Below are positions 5,523 to 63,819 of a DNA stretch of 64,000 nucleotides, piece after piece. The notes beneath the pieces were generated by a model that was not told the DNA's origin, made no database searches, and was given only the letters and a program-made list of their open reading frames with translations. Both the position numbers and the translations under genes were made by a program. Origin of the DNA: Pelagomonas calceolata (taxonomy: Eukaryota > Sar > Pelagophyceae > Pelagomonadales > Pelagomonadaceae); assembly GCA_918797485.1 (NCBI GenBank), contig CAKKNE010000001.1, positions 4,464,001-4,528,000 of the forward strand, read 5' to 3'. Position 1 is the first letter of the stretch. The number at the start of each line of letters is the position of its first letter.

Positions 5523-5549
5523 GCTAGCGGCCAGTAAGACACTAGCAAG
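5523..5549 (+). promoter_or_regulatory. GCTAG near-palindrome, copy a
   Basis: GCTAGCGG, CCA, GTAAGACACTAGC, followed by AAG. It lies in the head-to-head gap between the SHQW gene (start 5333) and the glycosyltransferase (start 5780). Confidence 0.5.
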
Positions 5550-5589
5550 CCAACAAAAAAAAGACACACCAAGACGCAAGCGGCTCGTC

Positions 5590-5770
5590 TGGTGGCTAGC
5601 GGTGCGAAGCAGCAACGAGAGAGCTGCGGCCAGCGCGGCATCTGTCGCAAGCAGCGAAAGCGAGCTGTGCGGCAGCGGTCGCAAGCATAAAAAGAGCTGT
5701 GGCCAGCGCGACAGCGGTCGCAAGCAGCGAAAAGAGAGCGCTGCGGCGGTAGCGGCAGCGTGCGGCTGAC
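5590..5770. repeat. Degenerate GCAGCG/GTCGCAAGCA tandem repeat
   Basis: Imperfect repeats of roughly 35-50 bp built on AGCTGYGGCCAGCGCG and GTCGCAAGCAGCGAAA end just before the glycosyltransferase start codon, so they would form most of its 5' leader. No gene is seen in 5334-5779 apart from this and the near-palindrome at 5523. Confidence 0.5.
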
Positions 5771-5779
5771 AGCAAAAAC

Positions 5780-7805: not shown

Positions 7806-7905
7806 CTAGTAGCTGTATTGTGTAATTAAAACTTATGTGATATCATATATATATGTACAGGTATGAGCCTTCAGAGGCGCGGAGGTTGACGAGGAAGAGG
7901 TCGCC

Positions 7906-9196: not shown

Positions 9197-9265
9197 TGTG
9201 TGTATATAGCTTTTATTTTTCCAAACCCCCTCGGACGAACATACTTACTTCGCGATACAACATTG

Positions 9266-10075
9266 TCAACAAGCGGCCGCTGGCTCGAACCCATAGTGCG
9301 CCAGCACGCGCTCGGGCGTCGACGCGTCCTGGCCGTCGAAATAGTTCAGGAACACCTCGTCGCCGGCCGCGTAGGTAGCACCGGCCAGGAGAGCCAGTTC
9401 GCCGGCGGACGTCACGACGAGGCGCCCGCCCTGGCTAGAGTGGTTCATCTTCTCCACCAGCGGCAGGAGCTGCATAGTGCCGTTGACGCGGAACGCCCGC
9501 GTAGCGACCGCCGCGATGGCCCACGGTAGGTGCCTCGCGAGGTCCGGCCGCTTGCCGACGCAGAAGGCCGCGGTCGCCGCCGCCTGGCTCCGGCAGCCCG
9601 CGATCTCCTCCTCGTAGCTCTTCGGCGGCGGCTCGCCGCCCGCGTCGTCGGACGCCATCCAGGCCGTGTAGGCGTCGGCCGGCCTAGAGGCGCCGGGGTT
9701 CTCCGCGCGCCGCGTCGCAGCCGCCGCGGCCAGCACATCGGCGGACGTGCCGAAGGCGCTTCCATCCAGGCCCTCGGCGGGCAGCGTCGCGAGCCAGACC
9801 GCCCAGGGCGACGCGGCGCCCCTCGCTCTTTCGTGGCACAGAAACAGCGCCAGAGCGGCGCGCGGACTTCTCGCGAGCGACGCGTCCTGCAGCGCGACCT
9901 CGCACACGTACGGCGTCACGGCGAAGCCGCGCGGGAGCAGCAGCAGCGTGTCACCGGCATTGATGGCTTTCGTGGCGAACGCGCCAAGGCCGCCCAGCGG
10001 CGACGCGCGAAACTCGACGCCGTGCTTGTGTGCGTCGACGCCGTGGCTCTTGGCCCATGCGTTGCATGCCTCCAT
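9266..10075 (-). CDS. SET-domain protein methyltransferase, Rubisco-LSMT/SETD3-like
   Basis: 269 residues with ATG at 10073-10075. The N-terminal SET strand GVEFRASPLGGLGAFATKAI is followed by an AGDTLLLLPR element, a helical insert, then the substrate-side motifs VEKMNHSS and GDEVFLNYFDG and the closing LAHYGFEP. This is the split SET arrangement of plastid lysine methyltransferases and SETD3/SETD6. These enzymes transfer methyl groups from SAM to lysine or histidine side chains. No clear transit peptide is visible and the usual Rubisco-substrate-binding C-terminal domain is absent. The gene is head-to-head with the eEF1B-gamma gene. Confidence 0.8.
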   Translation of the reverse strand: MEACNAWAKSHGVDAHKHGVEFRASPLGGLGAFATKAINAGDTLLLLPRGFAVTPYVCEVALQDASLARSPRAALALFLCHERARGAASPWAVWLATLPAEGLDGSAFGTSADVLAAAAATRRAENPGASRPADAYTAWMASDDAGGEPPPKSYEEEIAGCRSQAAATAAFCVGKRPDLARHLPWAIAAVATRAFRVNGTMQLLPLVEKMNHSSQGGRLVVTSAGELALLAGATYAAGDEVFLNYFDGQDASTPERVLAHYGFEPAAAC

Positions 10076-10260: not shown

Positions 10261-10299
10261 GCCGCTACAGCGTGTCAGGGCGTCTTTGCTTGCTTAGGC

Positions 10300-10322
10300 C
10301 TAGTGTCTTACAGGCCGCTAGC
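10300..10322 (-). promoter_or_regulatory. GCTAG near-palindrome, copy b
   Basis: Reverse-strand GCTAGCGG, CCT, GTAAGACACTAG in the head-to-head gap between the SET gene (10075) and the eEF1B-gamma gene (10566). Confidence 0.5.
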
Positions 10323-13350: not shown

Positions 13351-13379
13351 CTATGCGTTATATATGTGCAATTAGGCCC

Positions 13380-14302: not shown

Positions 14303-14325
14303 GCTAGCGTAGAGACACACTAGAC
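14303..14325 (+). promoter_or_regulatory. GCTAG near-palindrome, copy j (diverged)
   Basis: GCTAGCGTAGAGACACACTAG in the 581-bp head-to-head gap between the membrane-protein gene (14104) and the light-harvesting gene (14686). The gap holds no other recognised feature. Confidence 0.4.
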
Positions 14326-14685
14326 AATCCTTCACGGCTTCGGAGTTCATCGAGGCGAGTACTGGCTACAGCGTCATCCTACACGGCAATTATCGCGTCG
14401 AGAAGTTCAATTGTCACGTTGACGGTCAGCCGCAGCAATTTCGAGCGCAGAGATCGCGGCTACGCGCCGGACAGCTGTTTTGGGCAGGGGAGGTCTGGAG
14501 CGCGAAACGCTGGACGTACGCCAGCCGCCGCGCGCCGCGAGGCCAGCATCCAGCCTCCGGACGCTGCCAGCTCGCGCTGCATCCAGCCGGAACGCCAAAA
14601 ATGAGGAGAGAGAGAAGAAACGCTGCCCGCCGCCGAGACACTCGACACAGAAGACTCACGGCACCGCGCCCGCAGGCAGACAAGC

Positions 14686-15623
14686 ATGGCTCGGCTCGCG
14701 ACCGCGCTCGCGCTCTGCGCCGGCGCGCGCGCCTACGTCGCGCCCGTCGCGCCCAAGGCGGCGGTCGCGCGGAGCGCGTTCTACGGCGGCGGCGAGAGCG
14801 GCGCGCTCGACAACCTCGAGGGCGCGCCGCCGGGCCCCGTGCCGAACATCGCGAACCCCGGCGGCGCCTGGGACCCGCTGAACCTCGCGGACACGACGCC
14901 CTTCGGCCCGACGCTCGAGTGGTACCGCGCGGCGGAGCTCAAGCACTGCCGCGTGGCCATGGCGGCCTTCGTCGGCTTCATCGTCGGCGGCACGGGCATC
15001 ACGTGGCCGGGCAACATCGCGCCGGGCGTGACCTGGAAGAGCTGCCTCGGCGCGACGCCCATGGACACGTGGGACAACCTGCCCATGTACGGCAAGTACC
15101 AGATCATCGCCTGGGTCGGTTTGATGGAGATCTGTGGCGCGCCGCGTGGGAATCGACGGCTGGTACACTCACTCTTGATGTTGTTGGTTGAAGAGACTAG
15201 TCTGAGAACACACACTACCGCGTCGATGGAGTCTTCGTGAGACGACGGACGGGGTTGCTGCGGCGGCGATCGAGATTCAGACTTGATGTCCGCACAGGTG
15301 GCGAGATGGAGCGGCCGCACTACATGACGGGCGGCAAGGGCGGCACCGTCTTCTTCGACCCCCCCGCCAAGAAGTATTCCTTGTGGGATCCCATTAACAG
15401 CATGAAGAACTGGGACGACGCCAAGCGCAAGCGCGGCCGCCTCGTCGAGCTGCAGAACGGCCGCGCGGCCATGTTCGGCGTCATCGGCTTCGTCATGGCC
15501 TACAAGTACCCGGGCACGATCCCGGCCCTGAAATTCTTCCCGCACTACGAGGGCGAGCTCCCGGGCGCGCCGTTTGCGGGCGACTGGCACATCTCGGAGA
15601 CGGCGAGCCAGTGGGCGTGGTAG
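14686..15623 (+). CDS. Fucoxanthin chlorophyll a/c-binding light-harvesting protein, two exons
   Basis: Exons 14686-15133 and 15298-15623 give about 257 residues. The N-terminus (ALALCAGARAYVAP) is a signal peptide ending at an A-x-A-[FY]-like junction, the bipartite plastid targeting used by secondary plastids. Helix 1 carries the chlorophyll-binding EWYRAAELKHCRVAMAAFVG pattern and helix 3 the matching RGRLVELQNGRAAMFGVIGF. These are LHC motifs with conserved Glu and Arg. The protein sits in thylakoid membranes and passes excitation energy to the photosystems. The intron falls in the loop before helix 2 or 3 and is an introner; splicing gives MEICGEMERPH. A second family member lies at 62498-63106. 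Confidence 0.93.
15134..15297 (+). mobile_element. Introner element with its 5' target copy (light-harvesting gene intron)
   Basis: Element 15142-15297 (156 bp) is flanked by GTGGCGCG (15134-15141) and GTGGCGAG (15298-15305), 7/8 identical. It ends CTTGATGTCCGCACAG; its start CCGCGTGGGAATC is a weak inverted match to that end. It contains CGCGTCGATGG. The left target GT serves as donor and splicing restores the original codons. Confidence 0.85.
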
Positions 15624-15930: not shown

Positions 15931-16086
15931 CCCCAGAAGCTCTCAATCGACTCGCGGCGTCAGTTTCGGTCTCTCTCGGTTCCCTGAGCAGAACCGGCCT
16001 GTGGATGACCCTGTGAGAAGGACAGAGGGATGCTGGGCGTCCGGACAAGCGATGATATCTCGTTTTTGACGTTCGATTGCTGCTCT

Positions 16087-16111
16087 TAGCGGCCGGTAAG
16101 ACACTAGCAAG
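16087..16111 (+). promoter_or_regulatory. GCTAG near-palindrome, copy c
   Basis: TAGCGG, CCG, GTAAGACACTAGC, then AAG, in the gap between the light-harvesting gene and the 3' end of the NEK kinase gene. No confident gene start is next to it. Confidence 0.45.
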
Positions 16112-16275
16112 CATGCCATACGGCAAGCGAGGGATAGCTGTCATCACACCGGTATGACCTCTCTAGAGGTATGGTATGACACACCCAAAAATTCAATCGA
16201 CGCGGGTGTTAAGGTCGAGAGGGGGAGGATACGGCGCGACTACGGAGGGGAGGATGGGGGAGGGATCTTGGGTCT

Positions 16276-17664
16276 TCAGGCGCGGTAGGCGCCGTACTGG
16301 CCGTAGCCCGACGACACGGGGTACCGCCGCACGCCCGCCGCGCGGTTGCGCGCGTTCGCGTGCGACCCGAGCGGCTTGCGCAGCGGCGGCCGCGGCTGGC
16401 CGTAGACGGACTTGACGGGCTGCGCCGCCGGGCGTCTATATCCATAGCCGCCGCGGTTGTACTGGCCGTAGTTGCCGCCGTAGCGCCGCGGCTGGTAGTG
16501 CGGGTGGACGTTCGCGTGGGCCGCGCGCGGCTGCGCCGGCGCCGCGTAGCGGCGCTGGGGCACGGCCGGCGCCGCGCGCGGCGACACGCGCGGCCGCGGC
16601 GAGACGCGCGGCTTCGGGGCAGCGGCGGGCGCCGCCGCCGGCTTCGGGGCCTCGGCCGGCTTCGGCGCGACGGGCGCCGCCTTGGCGGGAGCGGCCTCGG
16701 CGCCGAGGGGCCAGGCCTCGGGCGAGTCGGGCCGCTGGTCCGGGAAGCAGGGCTTCGGGAGCTGTTTCTTCAGGTTCGCAATCCGCTGGGGGACCATGAT
16801 CGTCGCGGCCAGCTGCTGCGCGGGCTTCGGTTGTACACTGCTACCTTTGTACCAGTCCGCCGCTTTTCTAGATTTGACGTCTTCACTCGCTAAAATCTGG
16901 GCGATGGACGGTCTGGAGCGCGCGTCGACCCTTACTAACTTCGCGATCATTTGGGTCATGTCCCGCGAGAAATTTCTAGGTAACGACGGGTAGCGTCCCA
17001 CTAAGACCGCTTGTTTCAACTGCGCAAAGGTAGAACCGACGAACGGCGGCCGCAGAGCACACAGTTCATACGCTAAACAGCCGACGGCCCAGACGTCCGC
17101 ACCGAACGAGTAGGGCTTATTGAGCCAGACTTCCGGCGACATGTAGTAGGGCGTGCCGATCTGGGTCCTTAGCAGCGCACCCTTCATGCGCTTCGAGACA
17201 TTTAAGTCCCCGATCTTGACACTTCCATCGGCCGCCAGAAAGATGTTAGCGGCTTTGATGTCGCGATGCACGATCTTCTGCTCGTGTAGACATTGTAACC
17301 CTTCGCACATCTGGATGAAGTGGGACCAGACGACGCGCTCGTCCATGTACTTGCGCTTCTTGCGGTAGCGCTCGACTTTGGACGCCAAGTCGCCGCAGCC
17401 GCACATCTCCATGACGATCCAGAGCTCCCGGTCTCTTCTCGCCAAAAACGCGTCGTAGAACCCGACGATGTACGGGTGCTTGATCGACGATAAAATGCGG
17501 ATCTCGTTGACCGCGTCCGCGAGCTCGGCCTTTTGCATCTTGCTGATGTCGATCCTTTTGCAGGCGTAGTGGACGCCCCTATCACCTCTTCGTTCCACCT
17601 TGTAGACCTGGGAGAAGGCGCCCTTGCCGAGCTTCTCTACTGTGCGGTAGTCGGCCTCAGGCAT
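16276..17664 (-). CDS. NIMA-related (NEK) serine/threonine protein kinase
   Basis: 462 residues from ATG at 17662-17664. The kinase domain covers about residues 1-265. It has glycine loop EKLGKGAFSQVYKVE, the VAIK-type lysine in YACKRIDI, catalytic loop KIVHRDIKAANIFL, a metal-binding motif written DLN (KIGDLNVSKRM) instead of DFG, and activation segment end GTPYYMSPEVW. NEK kinases act in mitosis, centrosomes and cilia. The rest is a disordered proline/alanine tail ending in glycine/tyrosine/arginine repeats (YGGNYGQYNRGGYGYRR), resembling RNA-binding low-complexity tails. The frame stays open upstream for 163 codons, but that part has no kinase similarity and is treated as leader. Confidence 0.9.
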   Translation of the reverse strand: MPEADYRTVEKLGKGAFSQVYKVERRGDRGVHYACKRIDISKMQKAELADAVNEIRILSSIKHPYIVGFYDAFLARRDRELWIVMEMCGCGDLASKVERYRKKRKYMDERVVWSHFIQMCEGLQCLHEQKIVHRDIKAANIFLAADGSVKIGDLNVSKRMKGALLRTQIGTPYYMSPEVWLNKPYSFGADVWAVGCLAYELCALRPPFVGSTFAQLKQAVLVGRYPSLPRNFSRDMTQMIAKLVRVDARSRPSIAQILASEDVKSRKAADWYKGSSVQPKPAQQLAATIMVPQRIANLKKQLPKPCFPDQRPDSPEAWPLGAEAAPAKAAPVAPKPAEAPKPAAAPAAAPKPRVSPRPRVSPRAAPAVPQRRYAAPAQPRAAHANVHPHYQPRRYGGNYGQYNRGGYGYRRPAAQPVKSVYGQPRPPLRKPLGSHANARNRAAGVRRYPVSSGYGQYGAYRA

Positions 17665-18162
17665 GGTTGCGGCGGTGTCTGTTTCGTTGCGTCTGTTTCG
17701 TAGCTGGCGGCGGCGGCGGCGCTGTGAGTAGGCGCGGCGACGGCGGACGTCGGGTGCGGCGGGCGCTGTTGGAACGTCGACGGCAGCTGTCGCGGCGTTG
17801 CAGCGCTGGATGCGGCGACGTGCAGCGGTGGGTGCTGCTGCGTGCGGCGGCGGCTCGGGTGGCGCGCGGGGCTTCGGGGGCAGCCTGTGGGCAGCGACCT
17901 GTGATGATGGGGCGGCGGCGGCGGCTTTGCGTCGACGATGCTGATGGGCAGCCCGTTTCCAACGTGATTCCCTACTAGCCTCTAGCAGCGCGCGCCCCCG
18001 CCCGGTCCTTGACGGTTCCAAGGGCCGTACGGGAGCCCTCGGACTGATCTCTGCTGGGCGCGACAAAAAATAACGTGATTTTGTCACAGGCGCGGGCATT
18101 TCCGGAGGCATCCAGACGACTCCCCGCGACGCCATCGTCGCGACTACAGACAAAGAATCTTA
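17665..18162. other. Upstream region of the NEK kinase
   Basis: It holds an ATG-poor open frame in phase with the kinase (low-complexity alanine, proline and arginine), a GGGCAGCCC palindrome at 17946-17954, and the 3' flank of the golgin gene. No separate gene seen. Confidence 0.35.
17946..17954. promoter_or_regulatory. GGGCWGCCC motif
   Basis: GGGCAGCCC about 280 bp upstream of the NEK kinase start codon. Confidence 0.3.
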
Positions 18163-19779: not shown

Positions 19780-19806
19780 GCTAGCGGCATGTAAGACACT
19801 AGCAAG
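19780..19806 (+). promoter_or_regulatory. GCTAG near-palindrome, copy d
   Basis: GCTAGCGG, CAT, GTAAGACACTAGC, then AAG, between the golgin (start 19644) and the secreted-protein gene (start 19974). Confidence 0.5.
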
Positions 19807-19973: not shown

Positions 19974-20678
19974 ATGGCCCGGACGCTCGCCCTCCTCGCA
20001 GCGCCTCTGGCAGCCAGGGCCGCAAGCTGCCCCGCGGGCCCCGACGAGGCGCCGCGGACGGCGCTCACTGTCTCATTCCCGCGGCACAGCTGCGAAACGG
20101 TGCGGAACGAATTCAAGGCGCGCATGGCGATGGACCCCTCCTACCGCGTGACGGCCGAGGCGAGCGATTCGCTCGCGGCGGCGCGGACCACGGACGCGAC
20201 GCACGATTTGTTCGCGTTCTCCTACGACGCCACGGTCCAGGACCAGCGCCAGGGGAGTCCCAAGGCGCGCGTCGCGGGCTGCGTGGTGAGCGCCTGCGGC
20301 GTCAAACTGAACTCGGGCGACGAGGAAGGCGAGCTCTACTGCGGCATGCGCGACCTCTACTGCGGCGCGCGCGAGGACTGCGTCGCGCTTTTGGACTTCG
20401 GCGACTATTTCGAGAGAATAACGGAGCGATCGCGATCGCGCACCGACGCCGGGCGCTGCGTCGGCGGCGCGCAGCCGGCCTTCGACGGCTCGGTCCACCG
20501 GTACAACGACCAGCGCGGGGTCTCGGGCAACTACGGCCGGACAATGCGAGATCCGCATTATGGTACGCCTCAATGGCAGAAGGAGTTCTGGGCGCCGAAC
20601 ACCGCGACGATTCCAAACGGGGCGGACCCGATCCGGAACCCGTACCCGTATGCCAACGCTCCGCCGAACCCCGAGTAA
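19974..20678 (+). CDS. Secreted cysteine-containing protein of unknown function
   Basis: 234 residues. The N-terminus (ARTLALLAAPLAARAASCPAG) is a signal peptide with a likely cut after ARA. The mature part has about eight cysteines, including SCETV, a GCVVSACG pair, LYCGMRDLYCGAREDC, and a GRCVGG, suggesting disulphides. The region FAFSYDATVQDQ precedes them. The C-terminal 50 residues are rich in Asn, Pro, Gly and Tyr (RDPHYGTPQWQKEFWAPNT) and hydrophilic. I recognise no family. Confidence 0.65.
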   Translation: MARTLALLAAPLAARAASCPAGPDEAPRTALTVSFPRHSCETVRNEFKARMAMDPSYRVTAEASDSLAAARTTDATHDLFAFSYDATVQDQRQGSPKARVAGCVVSACGVKLNSGDEEGELYCGMRDLYCGAREDCVALLDFGDYFERITERSRSRTDAGRCVGGAQPAFDGSVHRYNDQRGVSGNYGRTMRDPHYGTPQWQKEFWAPNTATIPNGADPIRNPYPYANAPPNPE

Positions 20679-20784: not shown

Positions 20785-20808
20785 TGCTAGAGTGTGTCGA
20801 CACGCTAG
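20785..20808 (-). promoter_or_regulatory. GCTAG near-palindrome, copy m (diverged)
   Basis: GCTAGAGTGTGTCGACACGCTAGG, read on the reverse strand as CCTAGCGTG...CACTCTAGC, 214 bp upstream of the PD-(D/E)XK gene in a head-to-tail gap. The rest of 20679-21021 has CAGCAGCACACAGCAGCC repeats near the start codon and no gene. Confidence 0.35.
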
Positions 20809-21021
20809 GTTCATGCGACCGCGGCGCGAAGCTCCCGTGCGCGTTGAGGCACAAGGAATCACCAGGAATTCGCAAGGTGCTTCATTTGCAAGCATCTGCC
20901 TGTGGGCATCTCCAATTTTGCAAGCGAAGCGTCTGCATTGACACATACCTGTAGAAGGCAGCAGCACACAGCAGCCACGACATCGCCGCGGCGGCAGCAC
21001 ACAGCAGCCAACCGACGCAAC

Positions 21022-24121: not shown

Positions 24122-24291
24122 GTAAGGCTGCAGTCAGGCGTGTCGTAGGGCGCCTTGGCGCCCGCCGCGTAGGCCGCCGGTAAAGTATAAGGCGTAATAG
24201 ATCGAAACCCGGTCCCAGCAAGAACGCTGCGCCTAGACTCCCGCCTGGAGGTACGTTAAAGGTACTTTTATGCGAGGGGTGCTCCCGAATT

Positions 24292-24315
24292 GCTAGTGTG
24301 TTACATGCCGCTAGC
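24292..24315 (-). promoter_or_regulatory. GCTAG near-palindrome, copy e
   Basis: Reverse-strand GCTAGCGG, CAT, GTAACACACTAGC in the 394-bp head-to-head gap between the small membrane protein (24121) and the SmpB gene (24516). No other feature is seen in the gap. Confidence 0.5.
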
Positions 24316-24515
24316 TGAGCGCACTTGCCAAAAACGCCACACCACGAGCCCTTACGCACGCTGTCACCTGCCCCAGTGGTTGTTATTATATAGCCTGCAT
24401 TGCACTGGTAACCAGCGGTGCCAGCGCTAACGGGTGCAGCCAAGCGCAACACGCTCTGCTCTCTCACACTGCAACACCCTGCTCGTCGCAGCGCTCGCGT
24501 GAGGACCTTGAAACG

Positions 24516-40598: not shown

Positions 40599-43286
40599 CT
40601 AGTGGACTCGGAACTGGAAATATTGCCCAGCGCGGACGTTCGGCGGCACGGTGACGCGGTGCGCGCCGCGGCCGGGAACGTTCACGGTCAGCGAGGCACC
40701 CGGGCCGGAATTGGGCGGCACCTGGACGCGCATGAGCTGCGCGCCGCCGGCGGGCGGCGGCCGCGGTGGCGTGTGGGGCCGTGGCGGTCGCGGAGGAGGC
40801 GCCGCGTTGCCGCCGTACTCAAACTCGAAGGTCGAACCCGCGTAGACGCCTTGGGGGACCGTCACGCGCACGGTCTCGCCCGTCGGCGTGCGCACCGTCA
40901 TTACGGAGCCAGGACCCGCAGACGCCGGCACGCGGACCGTCGTCCTCCGGCGCGCCGGCGCCGGCGCTGGCCGCGTGGCCTGCACGACGGGCGCCGGCGC
41001 CGGCGCCGAATAGGCGGGCGGCCGCGGCGCCGGCGCGGGCGCGGAGTAGGCCGGCGGCCGCGTCGCATGGCGCGTCGCCCCGGCCATCACAACCAACATC
41101 AACTGGTCGCCGGGCCGGACGCCCGCGTCCCGTAAAGATAACGAGTCGTCCCTTAATACATTCCCTCGATTGACCAACCGGATGCTCTCCGGCCGCGAGT
41201 CCGACAACTGGGCGATCATCGACCGCAAACTTTCAACGGTCGTGTCGGCCGACAGAATGCCCGCGGGGAAGTCCGTCGCCGCGAAGGTCCGGCCGCCGTT
41301 CGTGCGCACGGAGATGTCGTAGTTTGTCGGCTCGACGGGCCGCGGCGTCTCCGTCCGGAAGGACCTCAAGCCCAAATTCTCCGCAACCACAGTAGCCAGG
41401 CCGTCCTCGCGCACAAAGTCTTCTCTTGTAACTCGACTCTGAATGTCGCACGCGGCTAAACAAGCTCTAACTAATTCCGCCGTGCCCCGCACTTGCCCCC
41501 GATCACCTCTCACTTCTAAAGAGTGGACCAAAGCCCTAAGCACCTCGCCCTCCTCCAAATATCCAACCCCGTCTTCGTCCCAATAGTCGAACCAGGCGCC
41601 CGGCTCGCTCTCGAGTTTCGGGGGCGGCGGTCGCGGCGTCTTCGGAGTCGCCTTGTTCAACCCCGCTCTCTCTAAAAAGGCCACGAGACCTCTTTCTGGG
41701 GCGGCGATGTCGTCATAGGCAAGAGTACCCGAGCCGTTATGGTCGAAGTGCGCCCACAGTGAATCCCACCGCGCGTCGATCGCCTCCTCGTCCACCGGTA
41801 ATTGGGCTTTGAGGGTGGCTAGGACATCTTCGGCGGCCACTTGACCGCTCCTATCTAGATCGACGAGATCGAACCACCTCCTCGCATCGTCGAAGATGGA
41901 CGGTAAAGCTGTCACGCCCGCGCTCGCCCTCCTACAAAGGGGGCAGAGTGGTGCACCGTTATTATCTCTATAGGAAGGCAAATCCTTCAAACAATCAAGG
42001 TGCACGACGTGCCGACATAACCGCCGCCCCGCGTCGTCCAACAACACGCCCTGCGTCCTTTTGTATAGTTCATCAAAACATACGGCGCACTCGCAGTGGT
42101 CCTCGTGCGCGTCGTCGTCGACAACACATGCCGCGAACGCCTCGACGAGGTCCGCCGGCTCCGAGCTCACGTTCGAGTCGGCGCGCTGGACGCGCGCGGG
42201 CGCGAGGACGTGGTCGCCGAAGGGGTCGTTCGTTGGCGGCGGCGCCCTCGCATGTGCGGGGTCCAACGCGTCGGCGGCCGCGAGGAAGGGGTCGGGCGCC
42301 GGCGTCGACGATGTAAATGGGTTCGGCGGCGCCGAGAAGGGGTTTGATGGTAGTTGCGCGGCCGGTCTTTGTGGAGGGACGGGCGCGCGCGCCGGCGCGA
42401 GGACGTGGTCGCCGAAGGGATCCGGTGATGCTGTTGTTGAAGACGCGAAGGGGTTCGCCGGCGCGGCGAACGGGTTTGCCGGTGGCGGCGGCGCCCGCAC
42501 GGCCGGCAGTGGCGCGACGCCCGCCGCCGCGCCCAGCGGCAGCGTCGCGCCCGTCGTCGCGCGCACGACGCCGCCCTGAGGTCTCGCCGGCGTCGGCGGC
42601 GGTGCTGGTATTAAGTCGTCGCCGCGCGCCACTCGTACTAATTGATCCAACCACGCCTCCTTCTTCGCCGCGGAATGGGCGGCGAGATCATACTCGAAGC
42701 CGCCGGGCACCGCTATCGAAAAGGAGTGCTGCTTGGAGCCGTCGACGTCATCAGTACAGACCATCGCGTTCGCGAGAGGTATGGTACCTCTAGCGGCCGG
42801 CGCCGACGGGTCCGCGTTGCGGCATAATTGGACCTCTCTCGTGTGCAGGCCCCGGTGGAAGTAGAGGAGGCAGCTGCTCTTGGGCACCAAGACGAAAAAT
42901 CGCCGCTGCCACGCGCCGCGCCGCCACCCGGACGTCGCTCTTCGCAAAAGCCACCCATACAACGCCGGGTCGTCGGCGAAGGAACTGGCTCTTGTCATTG
43001 CTGCCGAGTTGGATCCTCTTGGGGACGCAATTCTTCTAACTATTCGCGTCGCGCCGCTCGCGACGTTCACCTGGATGATCTTCGTCGACGGCGGCCGCGG
43101 CATGCGCTCGCTCCGCGCGTTGTCGCCGAACCGCACTTCGAATTCGCGCAGCCCGGGCGGGTTCTGCGGCATCGTGAGGAGGATTTTATTCTTGTTCGCG
43201 CGGTAGGCGTCCTCGATGACTTGGTTGTCCGCGTCCGAGAAGGCGTGCCAGCGGTTGTCCGCGTCTCTGTGTTCATATTTTGCCAT
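40599..43286 (-). CDS. WWE-PH-RING-EF-hand-ubiquitin-like multidomain protein, probable E3 ligase
   Basis: 895 residues. In order: an N-terminal WWE domain (KYEHRDADNRWHAFSDADN), a PH domain (LYGWLLRRATSGWRRGAWQR, RFFVLVPKSSCLLYFH), a disordered stretch with four NPF and three DPF motifs, a RING-H2 (CAVC...CRHVVHLDC...CPLC) near residues 395-450, calcium-type EF-hands (DLDRSGQVAAEDV, DHNGSGTLAYDD and DEDGVGYLEEGE), a ubiquitin-like fold (IRLVNRGNVLRDDSLSLRDA), and two C-terminal repeats of the type RVQVPPNSGPG...VTVPPNVRAG. WWE domains bind poly-ADP-ribose or ligase partners and RING gives E3 activity, so calcium-tuned ubiquitylation at membranes is inferred. It is convergent with the adaptor gene, 92 bp apart. 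Confidence 0.85.
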   Translation of the reverse strand: MAKYEHRDADNRWHAFSDADNQVIEDAYRANKNKILLTMPQNPPGLREFEVRFGDNARSERMPRPPSTKIIQVNVASGATRIVRRIASPRGSNSAAMTRASSFADDPALYGWLLRRATSGWRRGAWQRRFFVLVPKSSCLLYFHRGLHTREVQLCRNADPSAPAARGTIPLANAMVCTDDVDGSKQHSFSIAVPGGFEYDLAAHSAAKKEAWLDQLVRVARGDDLIPAPPPTPARPQGGVVRATTGATLPLGAAAGVAPLPAVRAPPPPANPFAAPANPFASSTTASPDPFGDHVLAPARAPVPPQRPAAQLPSNPFSAPPNPFTSSTPAPDPFLAAADALDPAHARAPPPTNDPFGDHVLAPARVQRADSNVSSEPADLVEAFAACVVDDDAHEDHCECAVCFDELYKRTQGVLLDDAGRRLCRHVVHLDCLKDLPSYRDNNGAPLCPLCRRASAGVTALPSIFDDARRWFDLVDLDRSGQVAAEDVLATLKAQLPVDEEAIDARWDSLWAHFDHNGSGTLAYDDIAAPERGLVAFLERAGLNKATPKTPRPPPPKLESEPGAWFDYWDEDGVGYLEEGEVLRALVHSLEVRGDRGQVRGTAELVRACLAACDIQSRVTREDFVREDGLATVVAENLGLRSFRTETPRPVEPTNYDISVRTNGGRTFAATDFPAGILSADTTVESLRSMIAQLSDSRPESIRLVNRGNVLRDDSLSLRDAGVRPGDQLMLVVMAGATRHATRPPAYSAPAPAPRPPAYSAPAPAPVVQATRPAPAPARRRTTVRVPASAGPGSVMTVRTPTGETVRVTVPQGVYAGSTFEFEYGGNAAPPPRPPRPHTPPRPPPAGGAQLMRVQVPPNSGPGASLTVNVPGRGAHRVTVPPNVRAGQYFQFRVH

Positions 43287-43523: not shown

Positions 43524-43544
43524 GCTAGTATCGGTAACGCTAGC
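43524..43544 (-). promoter_or_regulatory. GCTAG near-palindrome, copy g (diverged)
   Basis: GCTAGTATCGGTAACGCTAGC, 238 bp upstream of the WWE-PH-RING gene start on the reverse strand. Confidence 0.35.
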
Positions 43545-45693: not shown

Positions 45694-48600
45694 TTAGGAA
45701 GGAGTCGTTGCCGCCCGCGCCGCCGCGACGTCGGCGGGCGTCAGCGCGACGCGGTTCGCGACGTAGTAGGGCGACATGACCTGGGACGGCGCACCGTGCG
45801 CGAGGCCCAGGCAGTGGCCGATCTCGTGTAAAGCCACGGGCAGGAGGTAGAAGGCGCCCGGCGTCTGCGCCATGCCTTGTAGGAGCCAGTCCTCGCGCGC
45901 GTCGAAGGTCAGACTTTTGGCGTCCGCCTTCGCGAGGGCGCCGCCCGGCCCGTCGAAGCGCACGTCGCGCGGCCCGCACCAGTCGACCGTGATGTCGGCG
46001 TCGGGGCCTTCTTCCGGTCCTCCAATCCTCTCAAATTTCACCCCAGATGCCGCGGACCACATGGCAAACGCATCATCTATTTCATCCAAAACGCCCTGCC
46101 TAGATAAATAACCAGGTGTCGCATCGGAGACGGTGTACGTCACTACGCTGTCGCTCATATAAACACTGATACCGGCGCCGATGTCCTTCGAGGCATCATG
46201 TCTTGGTTTTTTCAGGACCGAGATCGTCTTCGGCCCCACGATGCCATCTGACTTCAATCGATTGATCTCCTGGAAAGCTTTCAAAGCGTCCAAGGTCTTC
46301 TCGCCGAACTCGCCATCCAACGCCCCGTCGTAGAATCCAGACACGGTCAACTTTTCCTGGACGGCTTTCGTACAATCGCTGCTGTCCCCTTCTTGTAATT
46401 GTGAAGCGTCGCGCCACCAGGGCCCCACGAGTTCCGGGAGGGGAATGCCCGTGTCCTGCGACGACTCGGCATCTAACTCTATGAGCTCATCAGTGTTCGC
46501 ATCAATCACTAGTGTTTTGAGCACGACGTCCTTCCTCCCTAGATGGAGCGTGTGCCTTAACTGTCGCGTGACGTCGACCATGATGTCAATGCGCGTCTTC
46601 GAGCGGCAGTTCTCGCAGCCCCCATTATCTCCTCGCCCCCCGAAGATCGATGATGAGCCGCCATAGTACTGGTGCTCGTCGCGGGGGCAACGCACGAGAG
46701 GCACCTCAAAATTTTCAGCGTCTTTGGGCACGACAAACACGTGAATGAGGTAGGCCTGGTCCTTGAACACTTCCAATCCTAAATCCAGTCCTCTGAACAA
46801 CGCGTAGTCCGGCGCCTCGCGCAGTCGCGAACGCGGCTGCTTCGGCAATGAATCGTAGGCGTAGCCCAGATGCGCCGCGTCGAACAAATCCGCGTGTTTA
46901 TATATATCTCCTGTATTTTTGTTGACGAAGGGTCGCAGCTCCGTGTTGTATTCTCTAGAATTGTACCTCTGGAACTCCGACTGCGAGTCCGGGTGGGCTT
47001 GCAAGTAAGCCTCATATAACCGATCCACGTTGCAGTGGTGGAGGAAGAAGGCCGGGTAGAACGCCGCGTAGCTTGTGGTGGTCATGGGGTAGCCACCTGT
47101 GTGGAAATCAAACTTTACGGCGCGTTCGTGCTGAATCGTCGCGTCGTCCTCCACGCCATCGACGCGACGCCTGCTCGATGGCGTGGCGATGCCGATTCCT
47201 CACCGCTCGACCGAGCCAGCGCGGCCGCACCATCGCCGAGAAATGACTTAGTGAAGAATTGTGCACCCGTCGCACTTGTTTATTTCCACACAGATACCCA
47301 CAAGCGACGTGCACGTAGTTGTGCGGGCTCTCGACGTCGTCATTCGAACCCGTCGCCGTCGACGCCGCGGCGCCGTGCTGCGATGTGGTCAAAGCGTTGT
47401 CGGCGTTCGTTCGCACATTGTACCTCTGTAAAAGTGATAGGATCTCCTCGTCATCGTTGATCCTAGAGAAGCCCCGGTCCTCGAACTGCTCCGAGGAAGA
47501 GTTTGAAGGATCGATGAGATCGCGCGGCATCTCCGAGAAGTAGTCCCTTATGACTTTCGGCACGACCTCGCCATTCAAGGAAGGAGCATACATGCAGTCC
47601 CAGTAGGGAAAGCCGATCCGGCCATCGTTGCCTAACTGTTTATCGGCCTCCCTCAAAGCGTTTTCCATCTCCATCTGGTAGGCGCGGTGCCAGCCCGGGA
47701 ACGACTCCCTCCTATGAGCACAGAGGCCCGTCGCGCCCGTCTCCAGGTCGCCGGGCCAGCCGTGGTAGCCCGCTATCCTAGCGTATTCTGATGTCCCAGG
47801 TCCATTGGGAGCCTGCATCATGCGATACAAGGCTCGCGCGAAGCGTAATTGTTCGGGCCGCGACAGCGATCTAACTTCCCTTCTAACTACAGGCTCCGCA
47901 TCTAACCTAGCTTGCTCGGCCGCGGCCGCGGCTTCCTCCTTTCTTCGTCTCTCTTCTTCTTCCGCTTGTAAGCGCCTCTCCTCTGCCTCTTTGGCTCGCT
48001 GCTCGGCGGCCTCCTTCTCTTTACGCAAGGCTTCCTCGCGCTCCTTGGCCGCCTGCGCGGCCCGTTCGAGGGCGAGTTGTTCCTCCTTGCGTTTCGCTTC
48101 TTCGGCCTTGCGCTCGGCGTCCTCCCTTCGTTTCACCTCGAGGGCTTCGGCCTCGGCCTTGGCCTTCGCGACGGCCTCCAATCTCAATTTCTCGGCCGCC
48201 TCTTCCCTAGCTTGGCGCTCGGCCTCCTGGGCGCGTTTGGCCGCCTCCTCGGCCTTCTGTCGTTTCAGTAACTCCTCGGCCTCTCTCAATCTCGTCGCCT
48301 CGGCCGCCGCCGCCTCGCGCGCCGCCGTCGCCTCGGCCTCGGCTTTCCGCGCGGCGGCCCGTTCCGCGGCCTCGGCCTGGGCCTTGGCCTCGGCCTCGGC
48401 CGCTGCAAGTGCCGCTTCTTCTTCCCGTAGCCGTTGTTCCTCTTCCGCCGCCGCGAGGGCCGCCGCGCGCTCCTCCGCGGCGACGCGCTCGGCCTCGGCT
48501 TTTTCCGCATCGTCCTCAGCCAGGCGCTTGGCCTGCGCTTCGTCTCGAATCCTACGGGCGTCGTCCACGGCGTCTCCCGTAAAAACCCACGCCAGCGTCA

Positions 48601-49669
48601 CGGAGCCCTGCGGCTCGTCGAAGCCCTCGGCCGCCGTTGTTAATGAGAACGTCCGCCGTCCACCCGACCCTTCAAACAAAAACGCCCCCGGCCGCGGCGC
48701 GATCGACGCGTCCACGCTCCCCAGGGCCTCGTGGCTGCCTCGAGAATCATAATCCGTCATCTCGACTCGGAGTGAGGAAGTGGGCACCTTCGCCGCGTCG
48801 ATATCAAACGAAAAGGTCTCGTTCCACTCCGGCGAGAGGTCGTTCCAGACGTGGGACGTTTTGACACTTTCCACATCTTCGCCGTCGACCACAAGCGTGA
48901 CCTGGCAGTAGGGGTCGGACTGGCTCCGCTCCTTCCTGTCATTCGCTAAATTCGCGGCGCTCACGACCGTTACACTGAGCTCGACTGTACCTTCAGAGCT
49001 CGTCTCGCTCTGGACCGCCCTAGAAGCGTAGGCGTCGGCCACTTGCTGGACGACCTCGGCGCGCTTGTCCTCCGGGATAGCGTTCAGTGAGGAGGCGACC
49101 CACTCTACCACGGCAGAGGCGTCCGCATCTATAGCGGGCGGCGCGTCGATGGACGACTCCGCACTAACAGTGCGCGACCAGGCGAGCGTGACCGAGCCGG
49201 GCGGCAGCGCGCGCACGGTCGACAGATCTAGGGTCAGCGGCGTCGACCCGCCTAGGCCTATCAAGGGCACTGTCGTGTCGCCCAGCGGATCATCAGAATT
49301 CGTCCAGTCCTTGTCCATCACTCTCACTTGCAAGGACGACGCTCTTGTATTTGAGAAGGTGAAGCGCTGCTCCCCAAAGTTCGGGTCCAGGTCGTTTTTC
49401 ACGTAGTCCGTCTGCTGTTCGTCGTCATCAACTCTCAAAATGACGTAGGGGTCGCTGATGCCGCGGCTCCCGTCCGTCTTAGGCAAATCGTTCGCGCCGT
49501 AGAGCGTGACGGTCACGTCATAGGACACTTCCACGGCGGCGTCGAGGATGGATGCGGCCTCGGCGTGGGCCCGGGTGCGCTGCGCCAGCGGGACGCGCGG
49601 CCAGGCGTCCTCGATGGTCTTGCCTTGCTCTCCGAACGAGCTTTGCAAGGCACTCGCGCCGGCCCCCAT
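45694..49669 (-). CDS. C2-C2-coiled-coil-tyrosinase-PG-binding-matrixin fusion protein, two exons
   Basis: Exons 49669-47302 and 47096-45694 give about 1256 residues. Two C2 domains (DVTVTLYGANDLPKTDG, SDPYVILRVDDDE; LSVTVVSAANLAND, QSDPYCQVTLVVDG) are followed by a coiled coil at about 375-600. A tyrosinase-type copper domain shows CuA (AGYHGWPGD, CAHRRESFPGWHRAYQME) and CuB (SPHNYVHV, then FFLHHCNVDRLYEAY); the intron separates these halves of CuB. Then come a peptidoglycan-binding-like repeat (GFYDGALDGEFGEKTLDALK) and a matrix-metalloprotease domain with HEIGHCLGLAHGAPSQVM, the zinc-binding and Met-turn pattern. No signal peptide is seen. Substrates are unknown; membrane-linked oxidation and proteolysis is a guess. 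Confidence 0.9.
47097..47301 (-). mobile_element. Long introner element with its 5' target copy (C2-tyrosinase-matrixin intron)
   Basis: Element 47097-47293 (197 bp), reverse orientation, has CTGTGTGGAAAT...TTGATTTCCACACAG ends and the core inverted pair. It matches the 29525-29725 element along its whole length with scattered differences. Target copies in gene sense are GTGGGTAT (47294-47301 on the reverse strand) and GTGGCTAC (47089-47096), 6/8. With the left-copy GT as donor the exons join as VACGYPMTT. Confidence 0.93.
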
Positions 49670-49886: not shown

Positions 49887-51212
49887 TCAGTCGTTACACA
49901 ATAAGTTCAGCAAGGCGTTCAAATCCGCCAACCCGACGGCGTTCCCGACCGCGTAGGTGGACCCGCGCCGCTCCCGCATGAGCCAGGGGCACGCGCGCCG
50001 CGGCCCGACGCCGCCGCCGCAGGCGTCGCCCGAAAACTGTGAATCGTACAGGGACGCGTTCCTGGCGACGAACCTGGCGAAGCCCAGGTAGTGGTGCTTG
50101 TTGTTCGCGTCGAAGAGGCGCGGCGCGGTGATCGCGAACGTGTCGTGGACCAGGACCTGAGGCAGTTCTGTCGCCAAGAATTCAAGCTGGCGCGCCGTCG
50201 CCTCTCGAATTTTAGAATTTGTCCGCCCGTCGAGCTCCTCCCTCCTGTAAGAATAGGCGGGCATCGTCCGCCAGACAAGTTTGGTGGAAGGGGGCAAACT
50301 GCCATGTAAAGCCCGGATCGTCTTTTGCCAATCCTTGACATACGTCTCGACGTCGCCGTCCCGCAGCCGCCAGTGGCCCCAGTTCGCCACCACAACTTTC
50401 CTGTTTCGAGCGTCCACGTTTAAGTCACTGGTGGGGTCCTCGGCCGCCATAAATACAACATCACCTGTACTTTCGAGGTCGGCCGGCTGGTCGGTCAACG
50501 TGTCGAACATGAGACGCGTGTGGCTGTCGCCCACGAACAGGGGCCGCTTTGATTGGAAGCATGTCTCCGCCTCTTTACGAGAGTAGATCTGCCAGGTGCA
50601 GCGCGGGCGCCACTCGCGCGCTCTCCAATTTCCATCATGGGCGCGCGGACCCTTTGTCCCTAAACCGGCGCAAGGGCGCGAGACGGTGCGCTCTTTGGGC
50701 ACCTTGACCTTCCCTAATCTTTCATCTCCACCAGCTCTTAGGACGCGACACAACGGCTTCGAAGTGGGTGAAAACGCCTCCTTGGCCGACGCGTGCATCC
50801 ACAGCACCCGCAGATCGTAGGTGCCCGCCTCGATCGGATTCGGTATGACGATGTCATAGTAGAACGGCGCGGTTCCATTATCGTAGGCGCCGCCGATCCT
50901 GGCCACAACCTCGCAGGGCGCTCGTAAAGGCCCTTCTCTCGACGTCCGATCGAGGCGGCACTCGAAGGCGGCGCCTGGACCAACACTACTCCGCATGTGC
51001 GCGGCGGCGCCCGCGAAGTCCAGGCCGAGGCGCCCGATTTCAAACGTATTCGCCGGTGGTGCTGCATTTGTGCAGTACTTGTCTGCATCATTGACGTCCC
51101 ACATTTCCGGTCGCATCGATGGCGCGGCGACGATCCAGTTCGGTTTCTTGTGCGCCGCGATGATGGTTGGTAGGATGGTGCAGAGCCACATGGCTGGGTA
51201 CCGGGCAGCCAT
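49887..51212 (-). CDS. PC-esterase/NXPE-like secreted or Golgi protein (SGNH family)
   Basis: 441 residues, ATG at 51210-51212. A hydrophobic N-terminus (MWLCTILPTIIAAHKKPN) suggests a signal or anchor. The middle has a beta-rich part (YYDIVIPNPIEAGTYDLRVL) as in filamin-like domains of NXPE proteins, then CTWQIYSRKEAETCFQSKRP, LFVGDSHTRLMFDTL with the GDSH serine block, WGHWRL, and a C-terminal DANNKHHYLGFARF. Plant and animal relatives acetylate or de-acetylate glycans in the Golgi. This fits glycan modification; the exact reaction is unknown. Head-to-head with the ISEFL-repeat gene. Confidence 0.75.
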   Translation of the reverse strand: MAARYPAMWLCTILPTIIAAHKKPNWIVAAPSMRPEMWDVNDADKYCTNAAPPANTFEIGRLGLDFAGAAAHMRSSVGPGAAFECRLDRTSREGPLRAPCEVVARIGGAYDNGTAPFYYDIVIPNPIEAGTYDLRVLWMHASAKEAFSPTSKPLCRVLRAGGDERLGKVKVPKERTVSRPCAGLGTKGPRAHDGNWRAREWRPRCTWQIYSRKEAETCFQSKRPLFVGDSHTRLMFDTLTDQPADLESTGDVVFMAAEDPTSDLNVDARNRKVVVANWGHWRLRDGDVETYVKDWQKTIRALHGSLPPSTKLVWRTMPAYSYRREELDGRTNSKIREATARQLEFLATELPQVLVHDTFAITAPRLFDANNKHHYLGFARFVARNASLYDSQFSGDACGGGVGPRRACPWLMRERRGSTYAVGNAVGLADLNALLNLLCND

Positions 51213-51319: not shown

Positions 51320-51343
51320 GCTAGTATGCTACAGGACGCTAGC
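51320..51343 (-). promoter_or_regulatory. GCTAG near-palindrome, copy h (diverged)
   Basis: Reverse-strand GCTAGCGTCCTGTAGCATAC then TAGC, in the 339-bp head-to-head gap between the PC-esterase-like gene (51212) and the ISEFL gene (51552). The gap also has a short CTACCACAGCGCTCGCGAGC direct repeat near 51499-51540. Confidence 0.4.
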
Positions 51344-60567: not shown

Positions 60568-60570
60568 TCT

Positions 60571-60588
60571 GTCGCGTCGATGGCGTGG
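60571..60588 (-). repeat. Introner core fragment in a 3' flank
   Basis: GTCGCGTCGATGGCGTGG, one arm of the introner inverted pair, begins 3 bp after the XRCC2-like stop codon. There is no partner arm, target duplication or splice context. The rest of 60568-60889 shows no gene. Confidence 0.4.
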
Positions 60589-60889
60589 TGGGGCGGCCGT
60601 TGCTAAGATGTGTGTGTTGATCTATCTGCGTGTTTTCGCGTGGCTTATCTCTGCGGAACATATATATATCTGTGTGTACCGTATACCATACATAAACCTG
60701 TTTTGCCTCGAGGCGCGCGAGCTGTCCGCGCAAGGCAAACGCCGACGCGGCAGACATTTATCGTCCCTTCTCTATAGCGCGATCACCGAGAACCGGTGCC
60801 GCCGAGGCATAGAATAGCCTGCAGGGCATAAACCTCTTTTTCCAGCTCCTCAGGGAGCGCCGCGTCGACGCGCGCGTCAATAACGTATC

Positions 60890-61590: not shown

Positions 61591-61916
61591 GCGGCATCCG
61601 TCCTCCCCCCACACGTCCCCGCCGCCGCGCTAGTAACTATCCCCCGTCTATTATTCCGGCTAGTACTGCTAGCCTAAGACTCCGCACGGTTCCCGGGGAC
61701 GGATGGCCACGGCGGCGTTGAGGCCACAACGCAGATCTCACACTGTTCCTCGCAGAGCGCCTGTTACACGCGCCACCACGCCACGCCCCAGTCGCTGCAC
61801 CCACCGCAGTATTGCCTGCGCACGCGCCTGTTACCCGCGCGCCAACCTCGTCCATCGCGGGCTGCCTCGTTCCCCAGCGGCAGCAAAGCAACAGTCTCGA
61901 CGCCAAGCGCTGAACA
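61591..61916. other. Spacer between exchanger fragment and membrane-protein gene
   Basis: It contains GCTAGTACTGCTAGCCTAAGAC (61663 onward), a distant relative of the GCTAG near-palindrome. No gene seen. Confidence 0.3.
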
Positions 61917-62413
61917 ATGGCCGTCACGCGCGGCAAAACGCGGGCAGCTAAGGCGAAGGGCGGCCTCGTGAAGCAGGCTATGACGCTCATCGCGCTCGCG
62001 TCGTCGGCGTTCATCCTGCTGCCCGCCGGCCGCGACATCGTCTCCTACAAGACGTCGATCCTACCGGGTGAAGCGGAGACGCGGCCGCTCATGACGATGG
62101 CGCACTCGTCGAGCCGGACGGGCATGTGGGGCATCTGGGGCCTCAACCACTGCTTCGTCGCGCTGCTCAAGGTCGCCGCGTTTGTCTCCGGCGTCCGTAC
62201 TTCTTCCCCGCGACGCCGTCGACACATTTCACGCGCAGGATCCTCGCCAAGGACAAGGAGCAGCTCAAGAAGCTCTGGGTCCTCACGGCCGCGACCACGG
62301 CGTACGTCGCCAAGTGGAATAGTGATGTGGCCGACTACGGCGGCGACCTCGGCGGCTTCGTCGTCGTCTGCGGCCTGCAGACGCTGTCGATCGGCTACCT
62401 CGCCTTCGCCTAG
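61917..62413 (+). CDS. Small four-helix membrane protein, two exons, function unknown
   Basis: Exons 61917-62179 and 62239-62413 join in frame to 145 residues. A basic start (VTRGKTRAAKAKGG) precedes a hydrophobic helix (AMTLIALASSAFILLPAGRD). Then comes a GMWGIWGLNHCFVALLKVAA helix, a charged loop across the exon junction (ILAKDKEQLKKLW), a helix VLTAATTAYVAKWNSDV, and a final VVVCGLQTLSIGYLAF. The glycine/tryptophan helix with His is distinctive. The 59-bp intron uses GT and AG and has no clear target duplication. I do not recognise the family. Confidence 0.65.
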
Positions 62414-62497
62414 AGCGCTCCGCCACGCTAGGAGCACTAAGAACGAAGTAAAAGGACATTCCGTTACGCCCGCCAGCGCTCCAAGCTACGGCCCTCT

Positions 62498-63106
62498 CTA
62501 CACGATCGAGAAGGAGAGGTTCTCGAACTGCTGCGCGAGCGTCTCGCCGGTCTGGCCCTCGGCGAACATGGCGCCGGCGATGCCGAGCATCGCGAGCCGG
62601 CCGTTGGCGAGCTCGGCGTTGAGCTTCGTGGCCTTGGTCTCCGGGTCGTCGTTGTACGACGTGCCGAAGAAGCCGCAGCCGTAGTCGCCCGAGTAGTTGT
62701 TCGCGGGCCACCACGCGAGCTCGACGAGCGCGCAGAAGGCGAGGATCTGGGCGATGCCCGCCGCGGGGATGGAGAAGAAGCCGCCGAGGCCGTCCGGCAC
62801 GTCCGAGAACTTGAGGTCGGCCGACTTGGAGAGGTAGCCGGGGAACTCGATCTGCGCGTTGTGCACGAGCACGCCCGTGATCGCGACCATGGCGATGCGG
62901 CCGTGCTTGCGCTCGACGGCGCGGCGGCGGACGAACGCCTCCGGGCCGTCCTTGGCGACGAAGCCGAGCGGGTCGAGGAAGCCCGCCGGCGCCTGCACGC
63001 CGAGCGTCGACTCGTCGACGGCGCGGAGCGCCGTCGAGGCCGGCGCCGCCGCGGGCGCCTGGAAGGCCGCCGCCGACGAGAGGCAGAGGGCGATCGCGAG
63101 CTTCAT
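62498..63106 (-). CDS. Fucoxanthin chlorophyll a/c-binding light-harvesting protein
   Basis: 202 residues without introns, ATG at 63104-63106. The leader KLAIALCLSSAAAFQAPAAA has the AAAF junction of plastid preproteins in secondary algae. Helix 1 carries the chlorophyll motif RRAVERKHGRIAMVAITGVL and helix 3 carries KLNAELANGRLAMLGIAGAM, both with the Glu and Arg ligand pairs. Length and spacing are normal for Lhcf/Lhcr-type antenna proteins. Compared with the 14686-15623 gene it lacks the intron and the long N-terminal insert. The C-terminus TLAQQFENLSF is typical. Confidence 0.94.
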   Translation of the reverse strand: MKLAIALCLSSAAAFQAPAAAPASTALRAVDESTLGVQAPAGFLDPLGFVAKDGPEAFVRRRAVERKHGRIAMVAITGVLVHNAQIEFPGYLSKSADLKFSDVPDGLGGFFSIPAAGIAQILAFCALVELAWWPANNYSGDYGCGFFGTSYNDDPETKATKLNAELANGRLAMLGIAGAMFAEGQTGETLAQQFENLSFSIV

Positions 63107-63819
63107 CTTTGAAATATTCTGCGAGGGGGGTTGGGTGGGCGCGCGCGCTCGTTGTGCAGCGGCGGCGGCGGTGTGTGTCGAGGTCTACCCGACGAGGTGG
63201 CCACCGGGCGCCTCGTCGGCACCGCCTTCCGCGGTAGCGGCTGAGCGACAGCAATGCGTGCTCGTGCCTTCGCTTTGTCCACGCCCAACAGCTGCCGCGT
63301 GCGAATGCTCGTGGGCACCCAGAACGGGTCAGCCGGACGCCGCGCCGCCGTATAAGGCCTTGCTACGCCAGCGATCCAACCTTGGCTTTACGAGCCGCAC
63401 GAGCGCCGCGGCGGCAAATCTTCTCGCGGTAGCTTCAGTAACCTCGCTCGTGAGTACAACGACCAGCGTGACGCTGCTTTTCACGTGAGTGTGGACGCGG
63501 TAGCTCGCAAATAGCACTATGAAGCCGAGGTATCAAGGCTTCGAGAGGCGAAGCAAAAAACCAATTTCACCTTCTCGAGCCCTCCAGGACGAGTCCGGTG
63601 GTCTGCAATATCGAGGAGGGCTCGAAAAGGGTTTTTGAAACCCGCACGTTGCTAGCGTCGTAAGATACTAGCGCCAAGCAAGCAAACTCGGTCCAGCGCG
63701 GTGCTGAGGGCGAGAGCGTGAGGAGAAGCGGCCATTTGTCTCTGCCTGACGCGCACACTCGGCTGCAGCGGACAAGAGCTGAAAGGATCGTTGCGAGACG
63801 CCAGCCGACGCACCGCACC
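63107..63819. other. Head-to-head gap of the light-harvesting and BRCC36-like genes
   Basis: No gene is supported. The reverse-strand open frame through 63567-63947 overlaps the BRCC36-like coding start and has no protein-like features. A near-palindrome copy lies at 63651. Confidence 0.35.
63651..63672 (+). promoter_or_regulatory. GCTAG near-palindrome, copy f (diverged)
   Basis: GCTAGCG, TC, GTAAGATACTAGC, in the head-to-head gap between the light-harvesting gene (63106) and the BRCC36-like gene (63820). Confidence 0.45.

Follow-up and report, generated by a model that had tools for sequence, protein, structure and literature searches.

What are the short inverted repeats that recur between the genes of this locus, and what might they do there? 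The window analyzed here, by which we mean the whole 64-kb stretch of DNA (coordinates count from its first letter), has a G+C content of 64.6% and is nuclear DNA of a photosynthetic eukaryote; it carries chlorophyll-binding proteins (coded at 15306-15623 and 62498-63106; Pfam), EF1-gamma, and SmpB. A stramenopile origin, probably a pelagophyte, is plausible, fitting both the chlorophyll-binding proteins and the G+C content near 63% of Pelagomonas calceolata, for which the available portion of the genome report gives 63% G+C and a mean of 0.45 intron per gene (PMC9481584).

Searching the window on both strands with the pattern GCTAGCGGNNNGTAAGACACTAGC at up to 3 mismatches recovered five matches, at 5523 (plus strand, 0 mismatches), 10299 (minus, 1), 16085 (plus, 2), 19780 (plus, 0), and 24292 (minus, 1), while the same search recovered none in 100 dinucleotide-preserving shuffles of the window. 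This bears out the recurrent near-palindrome described in the first-pass annotation, most of whose listed starts are also correct, two being shifted by 1 to 2 bp (true starts 10299 and 16085). The five diverged forms proposed there belong to the same family; they have in common a left arm CTAGCGT and a right arm with CTAG, the spacer varies, and their total lengths are 21, 22, 22, 24, and 24 bp. Seven CTAG pairs in the window are spaced at 18 bp, six of which are elements (the pair at 62410/62428 is not), and the other spacings up to 60 bp account for three pairs at 16 bp, two at 15 bp, and at most two elsewhere. A two-arm weight matrix built on the ten window sites scores all ten at 25 bits or more with the next best at 15.6 bits, a comparison that is circular given that the matrix was both trained and scored on the window; on 20 Markov shuffles of the window it finds, per 64 kb, 0.65 sites with a 16-bit threshold and 0.2 with an 18-bit one. 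The reverse test, with a matrix from 16 outside sites, is not circular, and the ten window sites take its first ten places, the weakest of them (20786) scoring 15.6 bits versus 11.3 for the next candidate. The five close and five diverged copies form one real element family. Separately, GCTAGTACTGCTAGC at 61659-61673 is an inverted pair shortened to 15 bp that precedes a plus-strand ORF; it was not scored as a copy and may be a degenerate or minimal form of the element.

A variable-length spacer separates the two arms of the element, GCTAGCGK and GTAAGAYACTAGC, which are inverted relative to each other but unequal. The 25 copies that were framed correctly measure 24 bp in 15 cases, 23 bp in 3, 22 bp in 5, and 21 and 20 bp in 1 each; one outside copy (L061), whose frame was off by a few bases, was kept in the 16-site model but excluded from these 25-copy counts. 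Both CTAG cores are near-invariant and lie 14 to 18 bp apart. Reading inward along each arm, one finds a fixed base behind the core, C in the left arm and T in the right, and the element is therefore directional and no true palindrome. Inverted arms with a direction had been proposed from the window alone, and the aligned copies agree with that architecture. Outside the element edges of the 26 aligned sites the information falls to near background, with the exception of a weakly A-rich right flank and an A immediately before the left arm. Seven of 25 copies have the word AGCAAG no more than 25 bp away on their right side, and none has it on the left (P = 3e-9, a nominal value, since the word was chosen after inspecting the word list), and CTGAG and ATCGG are also enriched downstream of copies but at scattered positions. 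TATA-like words (TATA[AT]A) are absent within 300 bp on the pointed side of all 26 copies and present on the other side of 3, numbers too small to interpret. The GTAAG seen in the right arm was considered as a splice donor and rejected, several copies having no GTAAG.

Copies beyond the window came from a scan of 84,980 prokaryote genomes with a 19-base core of the element, which returned three contigs, each from a MAG whose name is of marine type. The DNA around the outside copies is eukaryotic contamination of three bacterial MAGs, in the form of contigs or of stretches. These contaminated genomes (G001 to G003) are species representatives: MED672 and ERR599032_bin.133, titled Spirochaeta, and ERR599052_bin.23, titled a proteobacterium. 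The gapped pattern CTAGCGN{6,12}AYACTAG gives 10 matches versus 0 for the reversed control in G001 (4.0 Mb), 1 versus 3 in G002, and 3 versus 2 in G003; the counts in the last two are close to or below those of the control, and the numbers alone are therefore no evidence there. Three of the four G002 and G003 copies match the full 24-mer at 0 to 2 mismatches, where the reversed control has no match, and the fourth, L061, matches the gapped pattern alone and may be a chance match. The stretches that bear the element in G002 and G003 are short, look eukaryotic, and are joined to bacterial contigs; one of them has a sirtuin gene.

All ten G001 matches fall in five contigs with a window-like 4-mer profile. 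We examined 111 G001 contigs (numbering runs to 183; the first 20 kb only of long contigs), of which 8 are eukaryotic by composition (C18, C141, C146, C169, C170, C182, C143, and C157), with 4-mer correlations to the window of 0.78 to 0.89, versus at most 0.63 in all fetched contigs outside this set. The genes on the scanned eukaryotic contigs include importin, PTPA, photolyase, CNNM, fibrillin, a multidomain acetyl-coenzyme A carboxylase, and EDR2. The window-trained matrix finds 12 sites at 24 bits or more in the 73,002 bp of eukaryotic contigs, with the next best at 14.0 bits, and across the 1,828,087 bp of the remaining fetched contigs nothing reaches 16 bits. Element density is biased upward in C18, C141, C146, C169, and C182, which were fetched for their matches; the 27 kb of C143, C157, and C170, found without the motif, hold one site, below the prediction from the window density. 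The outside contigs and the window have repeats in common, and the outside copies may come from the same species as the window; they are independent loci, which does not imply independence of lineage. Within IMG/VR neither the exact nor the relaxed pattern had a match, and a gapped-pattern match on a 4,087-bp contig (50% G+C, 4-mer r of 0.14), located inside a phage-like ORF, was judged to be chance. Of the EF1-gamma and SmpB baits in IMG/VR, one had no match and the other a single short match at 50%. EF1-gamma has only three partial matches in the three MAGs, at 27 to 33% identity. Window ORFs compared to the eukaryotic contigs by tblastn with the low-complexity filter had no match at 1e-4 and recovered no orthologous promoter for comparison; the best match without the filter (31.5%, 1.5e-5) was in a mostly bacterial contig.

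Within the window, most copies stand between the starts of divergent genes. The 24-bp copy at 5523-5546 (plus strand) points to the plus-strand gene at 5780; the 24-bp copy at 10299-10322 (minus) points to the minus-strand gene at 9266-10075 and has its back to the EF1-gamma gene; the diverged 22-bp copy at 14303-14324 (plus) points to a plus-strand gene at 14601/14686; and the 24-bp copy at 19780-19803 (plus) points to the plus-strand gene at 19974. Farther on, the 24-bp copy at 24292-24315 (minus) lies in the divergent gap between a 3'-5' exonuclease gene (minus) and SmpB (plus) and points to the exonuclease, and a diverged 24-bp copy at 51320-51343 (minus) points to the minus-strand gene at 49887-51212. 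The last, a diverged 22-bp copy at 63651-63672 (plus), sits between the chlorophyll-binding gene at 62498-63106 (minus) and a plus-strand ORF at 63820 that runs off the window end and whose 60 available amino acids have no Pfam match. Three window copies lie outside head-to-head gaps. The diverged 21-bp copy at 43524-43544 (minus) is in a tandem gap, upstream of and pointing to the minus-strand gene at 40599-43286, which has PH, EF-hand, and WWE domains. The 24-bp copy at 20786-20809 (minus), in a tandem gap upstream of the plus-strand nuclease gene at 21022, is the weakest and most symmetric and is oriented opposite to its gene. The 24-bp copy at 16085-16108 (plus) is the exception to promoter placement among the window copies, being in a gap between the 3' ends of the chlorophyll-binding-like ORF at 15306-15623 (plus) and a kinase at 16276-18135 (minus). 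Next to this convergent copy, at 16120-16185, CTCTAGAG forms the center of an inverted repeat that is imperfect and has GGTATGA words on its flanks.

None of the 26 copies lies in a predicted coding segment, in agreement with the absence from coding regions claimed earlier; the joint chance that all ten window copies are noncoding is about 9e-5, corrected for CTAG-derived stops in some frames. The closest case is 43524, where the last few bases overlap one alternative ORF and the neighboring SHOCT-domain ORF stops at 43568, outside the element. By gap class the 26 copies comprise 11 divergent, 7 tandem co-directional, 1 tandem opposite, 3 one-sided, and 1 convergent, with 3 excluded; the gene maps rest on codon usage, ATG, and Pfam, without transcripts, and some of the tandem gaps may be introns. 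The three one-sided copies, at contig or chimera ends, point at the sole known eukaryotic gene. The excluded copies have no usable neighbor: L057:7906 comes directly after the importin gene with no gene known beyond, for L069:495 the closest predicted gene is 1.1 kb away and turns its 3' end toward the copy, and L061 is 26 bp from a contig end in G003. The 12 copies on the eight eukaryotic contigs divide into six upstream of a tandem gene, four in divergent gaps, and two without a usable neighbor. In 21 copies, 91 to 364 bp (median, 171 bp) separate the element from the first ATG listed in the direction it points. Direction can be judged in 11 copies (the 11 in divergent gaps are uninformative on it, and the pointed genes at L055:4290 and L056:2003 are weak predictions), and 10 of them point toward the downstream gene (P = 0.006). 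With the three chimera-end copies removed and 20786 retained, 7 of 8 are co-directional, and with L044, one of these three, counted as tandem the figure is 8 of 9 (P = 0.02).

The reading that we favor, with a probability of about 0.5, is that the element is a directional, promoter-proximal site in double-stranded DNA for a putative, broadly used sequence-specific factor resembling the general regulatory factors of yeast. Two DNA-binding units of one protein, or of a dimer, would contact the two CTAG cores 14 to 18 bp apart, and a flexible link between the DNA-reading units is suggested because the core spacing varies over that range. The bound protein would keep the region nucleosome free and favor initiation on the GTAAGAYACTAGC side, and one site in a divergent gap may serve both genes. 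Broad use is suggested by the unrelated functions of the neighboring genes; the 10 sites for 41 gene segments in the window speak less clearly for it. Two window copies speak against a broad promoter site, 16085 by lying between two 3' ends and 20786 by pointing away from its gene. A bolder form of the same idea is possible but, in our judgment, doubtful: a marine algal lineage, probably the pelagophytes, would set up many promoters through a lineage-specific, two-armed, spacing-tolerant directional master site of 20 to 24 bp, recognized by a factor for which no counterpart has been described, and this site would replace the familiar core signals and fix the direction of transcription in a very compact genome.

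The yeast factors offer the closest parallel in kind. Reb1 and Abf1, as general regulatory factors, can influence where nucleosomes are depleted and which way promoters fire, and the sites of the yeast general regulatory factors are not known to be related in sequence to the element. A role in shaping nucleosome-depleted regions and promoter direction is likewise described for Rap1 in the accessible part of one report (PMC6602560). Like the Rap1, Reb1, and Abf1 sites, the element is a specific site upstream of many genes, and Pfam annotation of its neighbors indicates that these are functionally unrelated: EF1-gamma, SmpB, an exonuclease, glycosyltransferase-like and ornithine-decarboxylase-like proteins, and a thioesterase, and further a pseudouridine synthase, PTPA, CNNM, fibrillin, thioredoxin/EDR2, and sirtuin. 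It differs from the yeast sites in its two unequal CTAG arms and variable spacing and in being known here from sequence.

The same neighbors bear on whether the factor could instead be a specific regulator that controls one condition-dependent gene set rather than promoters generally. We regard such a regulon as unlikely: a minority of genes at most carry the element, as the ratio of sites to gene segments in the window indicates, and strict conservation in both arms would suit a dedicated factor, but genes as disparate as those for EF1-gamma, SmpB, PTPA, CNNM, fibrillin, and sirtuin have no common theme. An improbable alternative is that the element is a chromatin boundary, nucleosome-phasing, or replication-origin site in intergenic DNA and no promoter element as such. 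Its intergenic position, a frequency of about one per 6 kb in the window, and the one copy between two 3' ends (16085) would suit a site of this sort; against it, orientation tracks the gene in nearly all of the judged copies, and only 1 of the 23 copies with gene context is convergent despite 12 convergent gaps in the window.

The first-pass annotation had taken the element to mark head-to-head promoters, with copies in 7 of 13 such gaps, and had suggested a bidirectional core promoter element between divergent genes. Seven head-to-head gaps do bear a copy, out of a total of 12 in the new map, namely 6 of the 11 complete divergent gaps plus the gap at 63651; copies also occur in 2 of 17 tandem and 1 of 12 convergent gaps, and element density is 1.29 per kb in the complete divergent gaps versus 0.35 in tandem and 0.31 in convergent ones. 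This enrichment is marginal in the window (7 of 10 elements versus 37.5% of intergenic length; nominal P = 0.04), and each divergent gap contains two promoters. The association with promoters stands, but confinement to head-to-head gaps does not, as 7 of the 26 copies are upstream of tandem genes and point at them and two more are tandem opposite and convergent. The arms are moreover unequal, the copies prefer one orientation relative to the gene, and a distance of 91 to 364 bp from the ATG exceeds what is expected of a core element and makes a core promoter element seem unlikely, all of which weakens the bidirectional idea to the point that we think it very improbable.

A structured RNA, with the inverted GCTAG/CTAGC arms and their variable spacer forming a hairpin in 5' leaders or at transcript 3' ends, appears highly improbable: base counts over 25 copies show C facing A at arm position 6 in 24 and G facing A at position 8 in 12, breaking the stem at fixed places without compensation, and no Rfam match was found in the window at gathering scores. 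Equally hard to credit is the earlier suggestion of a mobile fossil, or of a very short mobile element with active copies, which is unsupported by the flanks; some pairs have a few flanking bases in common (24290-24320 and L058:580-610 agree at 97% over 31 bp), but exact abutting direct repeats (2 to 10 bp tested) are absent in 22 of 26 copies and reach 2 to 3 bp in the other 4, similarity stops near the element edges except for the weak A-rich right flank, and no copy lies in a predicted coding segment even though introner-like elements split genes in the same window.

Set beside the promoter signals described for related organisms, a directional site for a broadly used factor would be new in sequence rather than in kind. 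The oomycete core promoter elements INR (YCAYTYY), FPR (MWTTTNC), and DPEP (SAASMMS) are, like the element, promoter words from stramenopiles that show an orientation bias and occur in a minority of promoters, but in the portion of that study available their sequences are unlike it and their position is at the start site or immediately downstream, mostly within 50 to 100 nucleotides of the start codon, versus 91 to 364 bp for the element (PMC3599244). The Aureococcus giant virus AaV has an early promoter motif, AAAAATGA, which is a promoter word in a system with a pelagophyte host but, as given in the accessible text, is viral, A-rich, without CTAG, and unrelated in sequence (PMC5917014). No description of this element or of pelagophyte nuclear promoter signals appeared among the matches listed in a literature search that covered few subscription papers. 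As judged from sequence, the element would be a cis-element of a kind already known, with a clear direction and a putative reader, and not previously described in the literature searched. At 20 to 24 bp it is recognizable from sequence alone, so any assembly can be searched for it, its positions compared with transcription starts, and its binding protein captured with it as bait; with its built-in direction, in a genome rich in shared intergenic gaps, how compact genomes separate neighboring promoters becomes testable.

The heat shock element, with consensus nGAAnnTTCn, was a further candidate and was rejected, base counts of the 26 aligned sites showing that GAA/TTC arms are absent. The heat-shock factor of Phytophthora infestans is reported to bind TTCTAGAA, which like the element has a CTAG core in an inverted repeat, but in the part of that report available this site requires TTC/GAA arms, whereas the element has arms GCTAGCG and YACTAGC with cores 14 to 18 bp apart (PMC11267843).

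Pelagophyte introner elements resemble the element in being repeated, in having inverted ends, and in occurring in the same kind of genome, as far as the accessible parts of two reports describe them (PMC9860276, PMC9481584). The introner-like copies in the window are about 170 to 200 bp long, lie within genes, and have ends CTGTGTGGAAAT, whereas the element is 20 to 24 bp long, intergenic, and without target duplication. The two introner-like introns, at 29524-29726 and 47096-47262, are 91.6% identical over 167 bp and have inverted ends CTGTGTGGAAAT/ATTTCCACACAG. By eye, an 8-bp direct repeat can be read on the two sides of the copy at 29524; the copy at 47.1 kb splits a tyrosinase gene, the Pfam match being divided over the ORFs at 47108-49669 and 45694-47085. 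Related pieces are present in L056 and L058. A repeated word, CCACGCCATCGACGCGAC, with its variants, occurs at 7477, 13681, 19941, 27695, 29635-29675, 47148-47188, and 60570; it is part of the inner inverted repeat of the introner-like copies and is also found alone, for example, a short way before the 19974 start codon and following L055:2198. A 1,413-amino-acid ORF without a Pfam match spans 36265-40506, a stretch of about 76% G+C whose 4-mer profile is unlike that of the rest of the window (r of 0.58 for a 4-kb piece).
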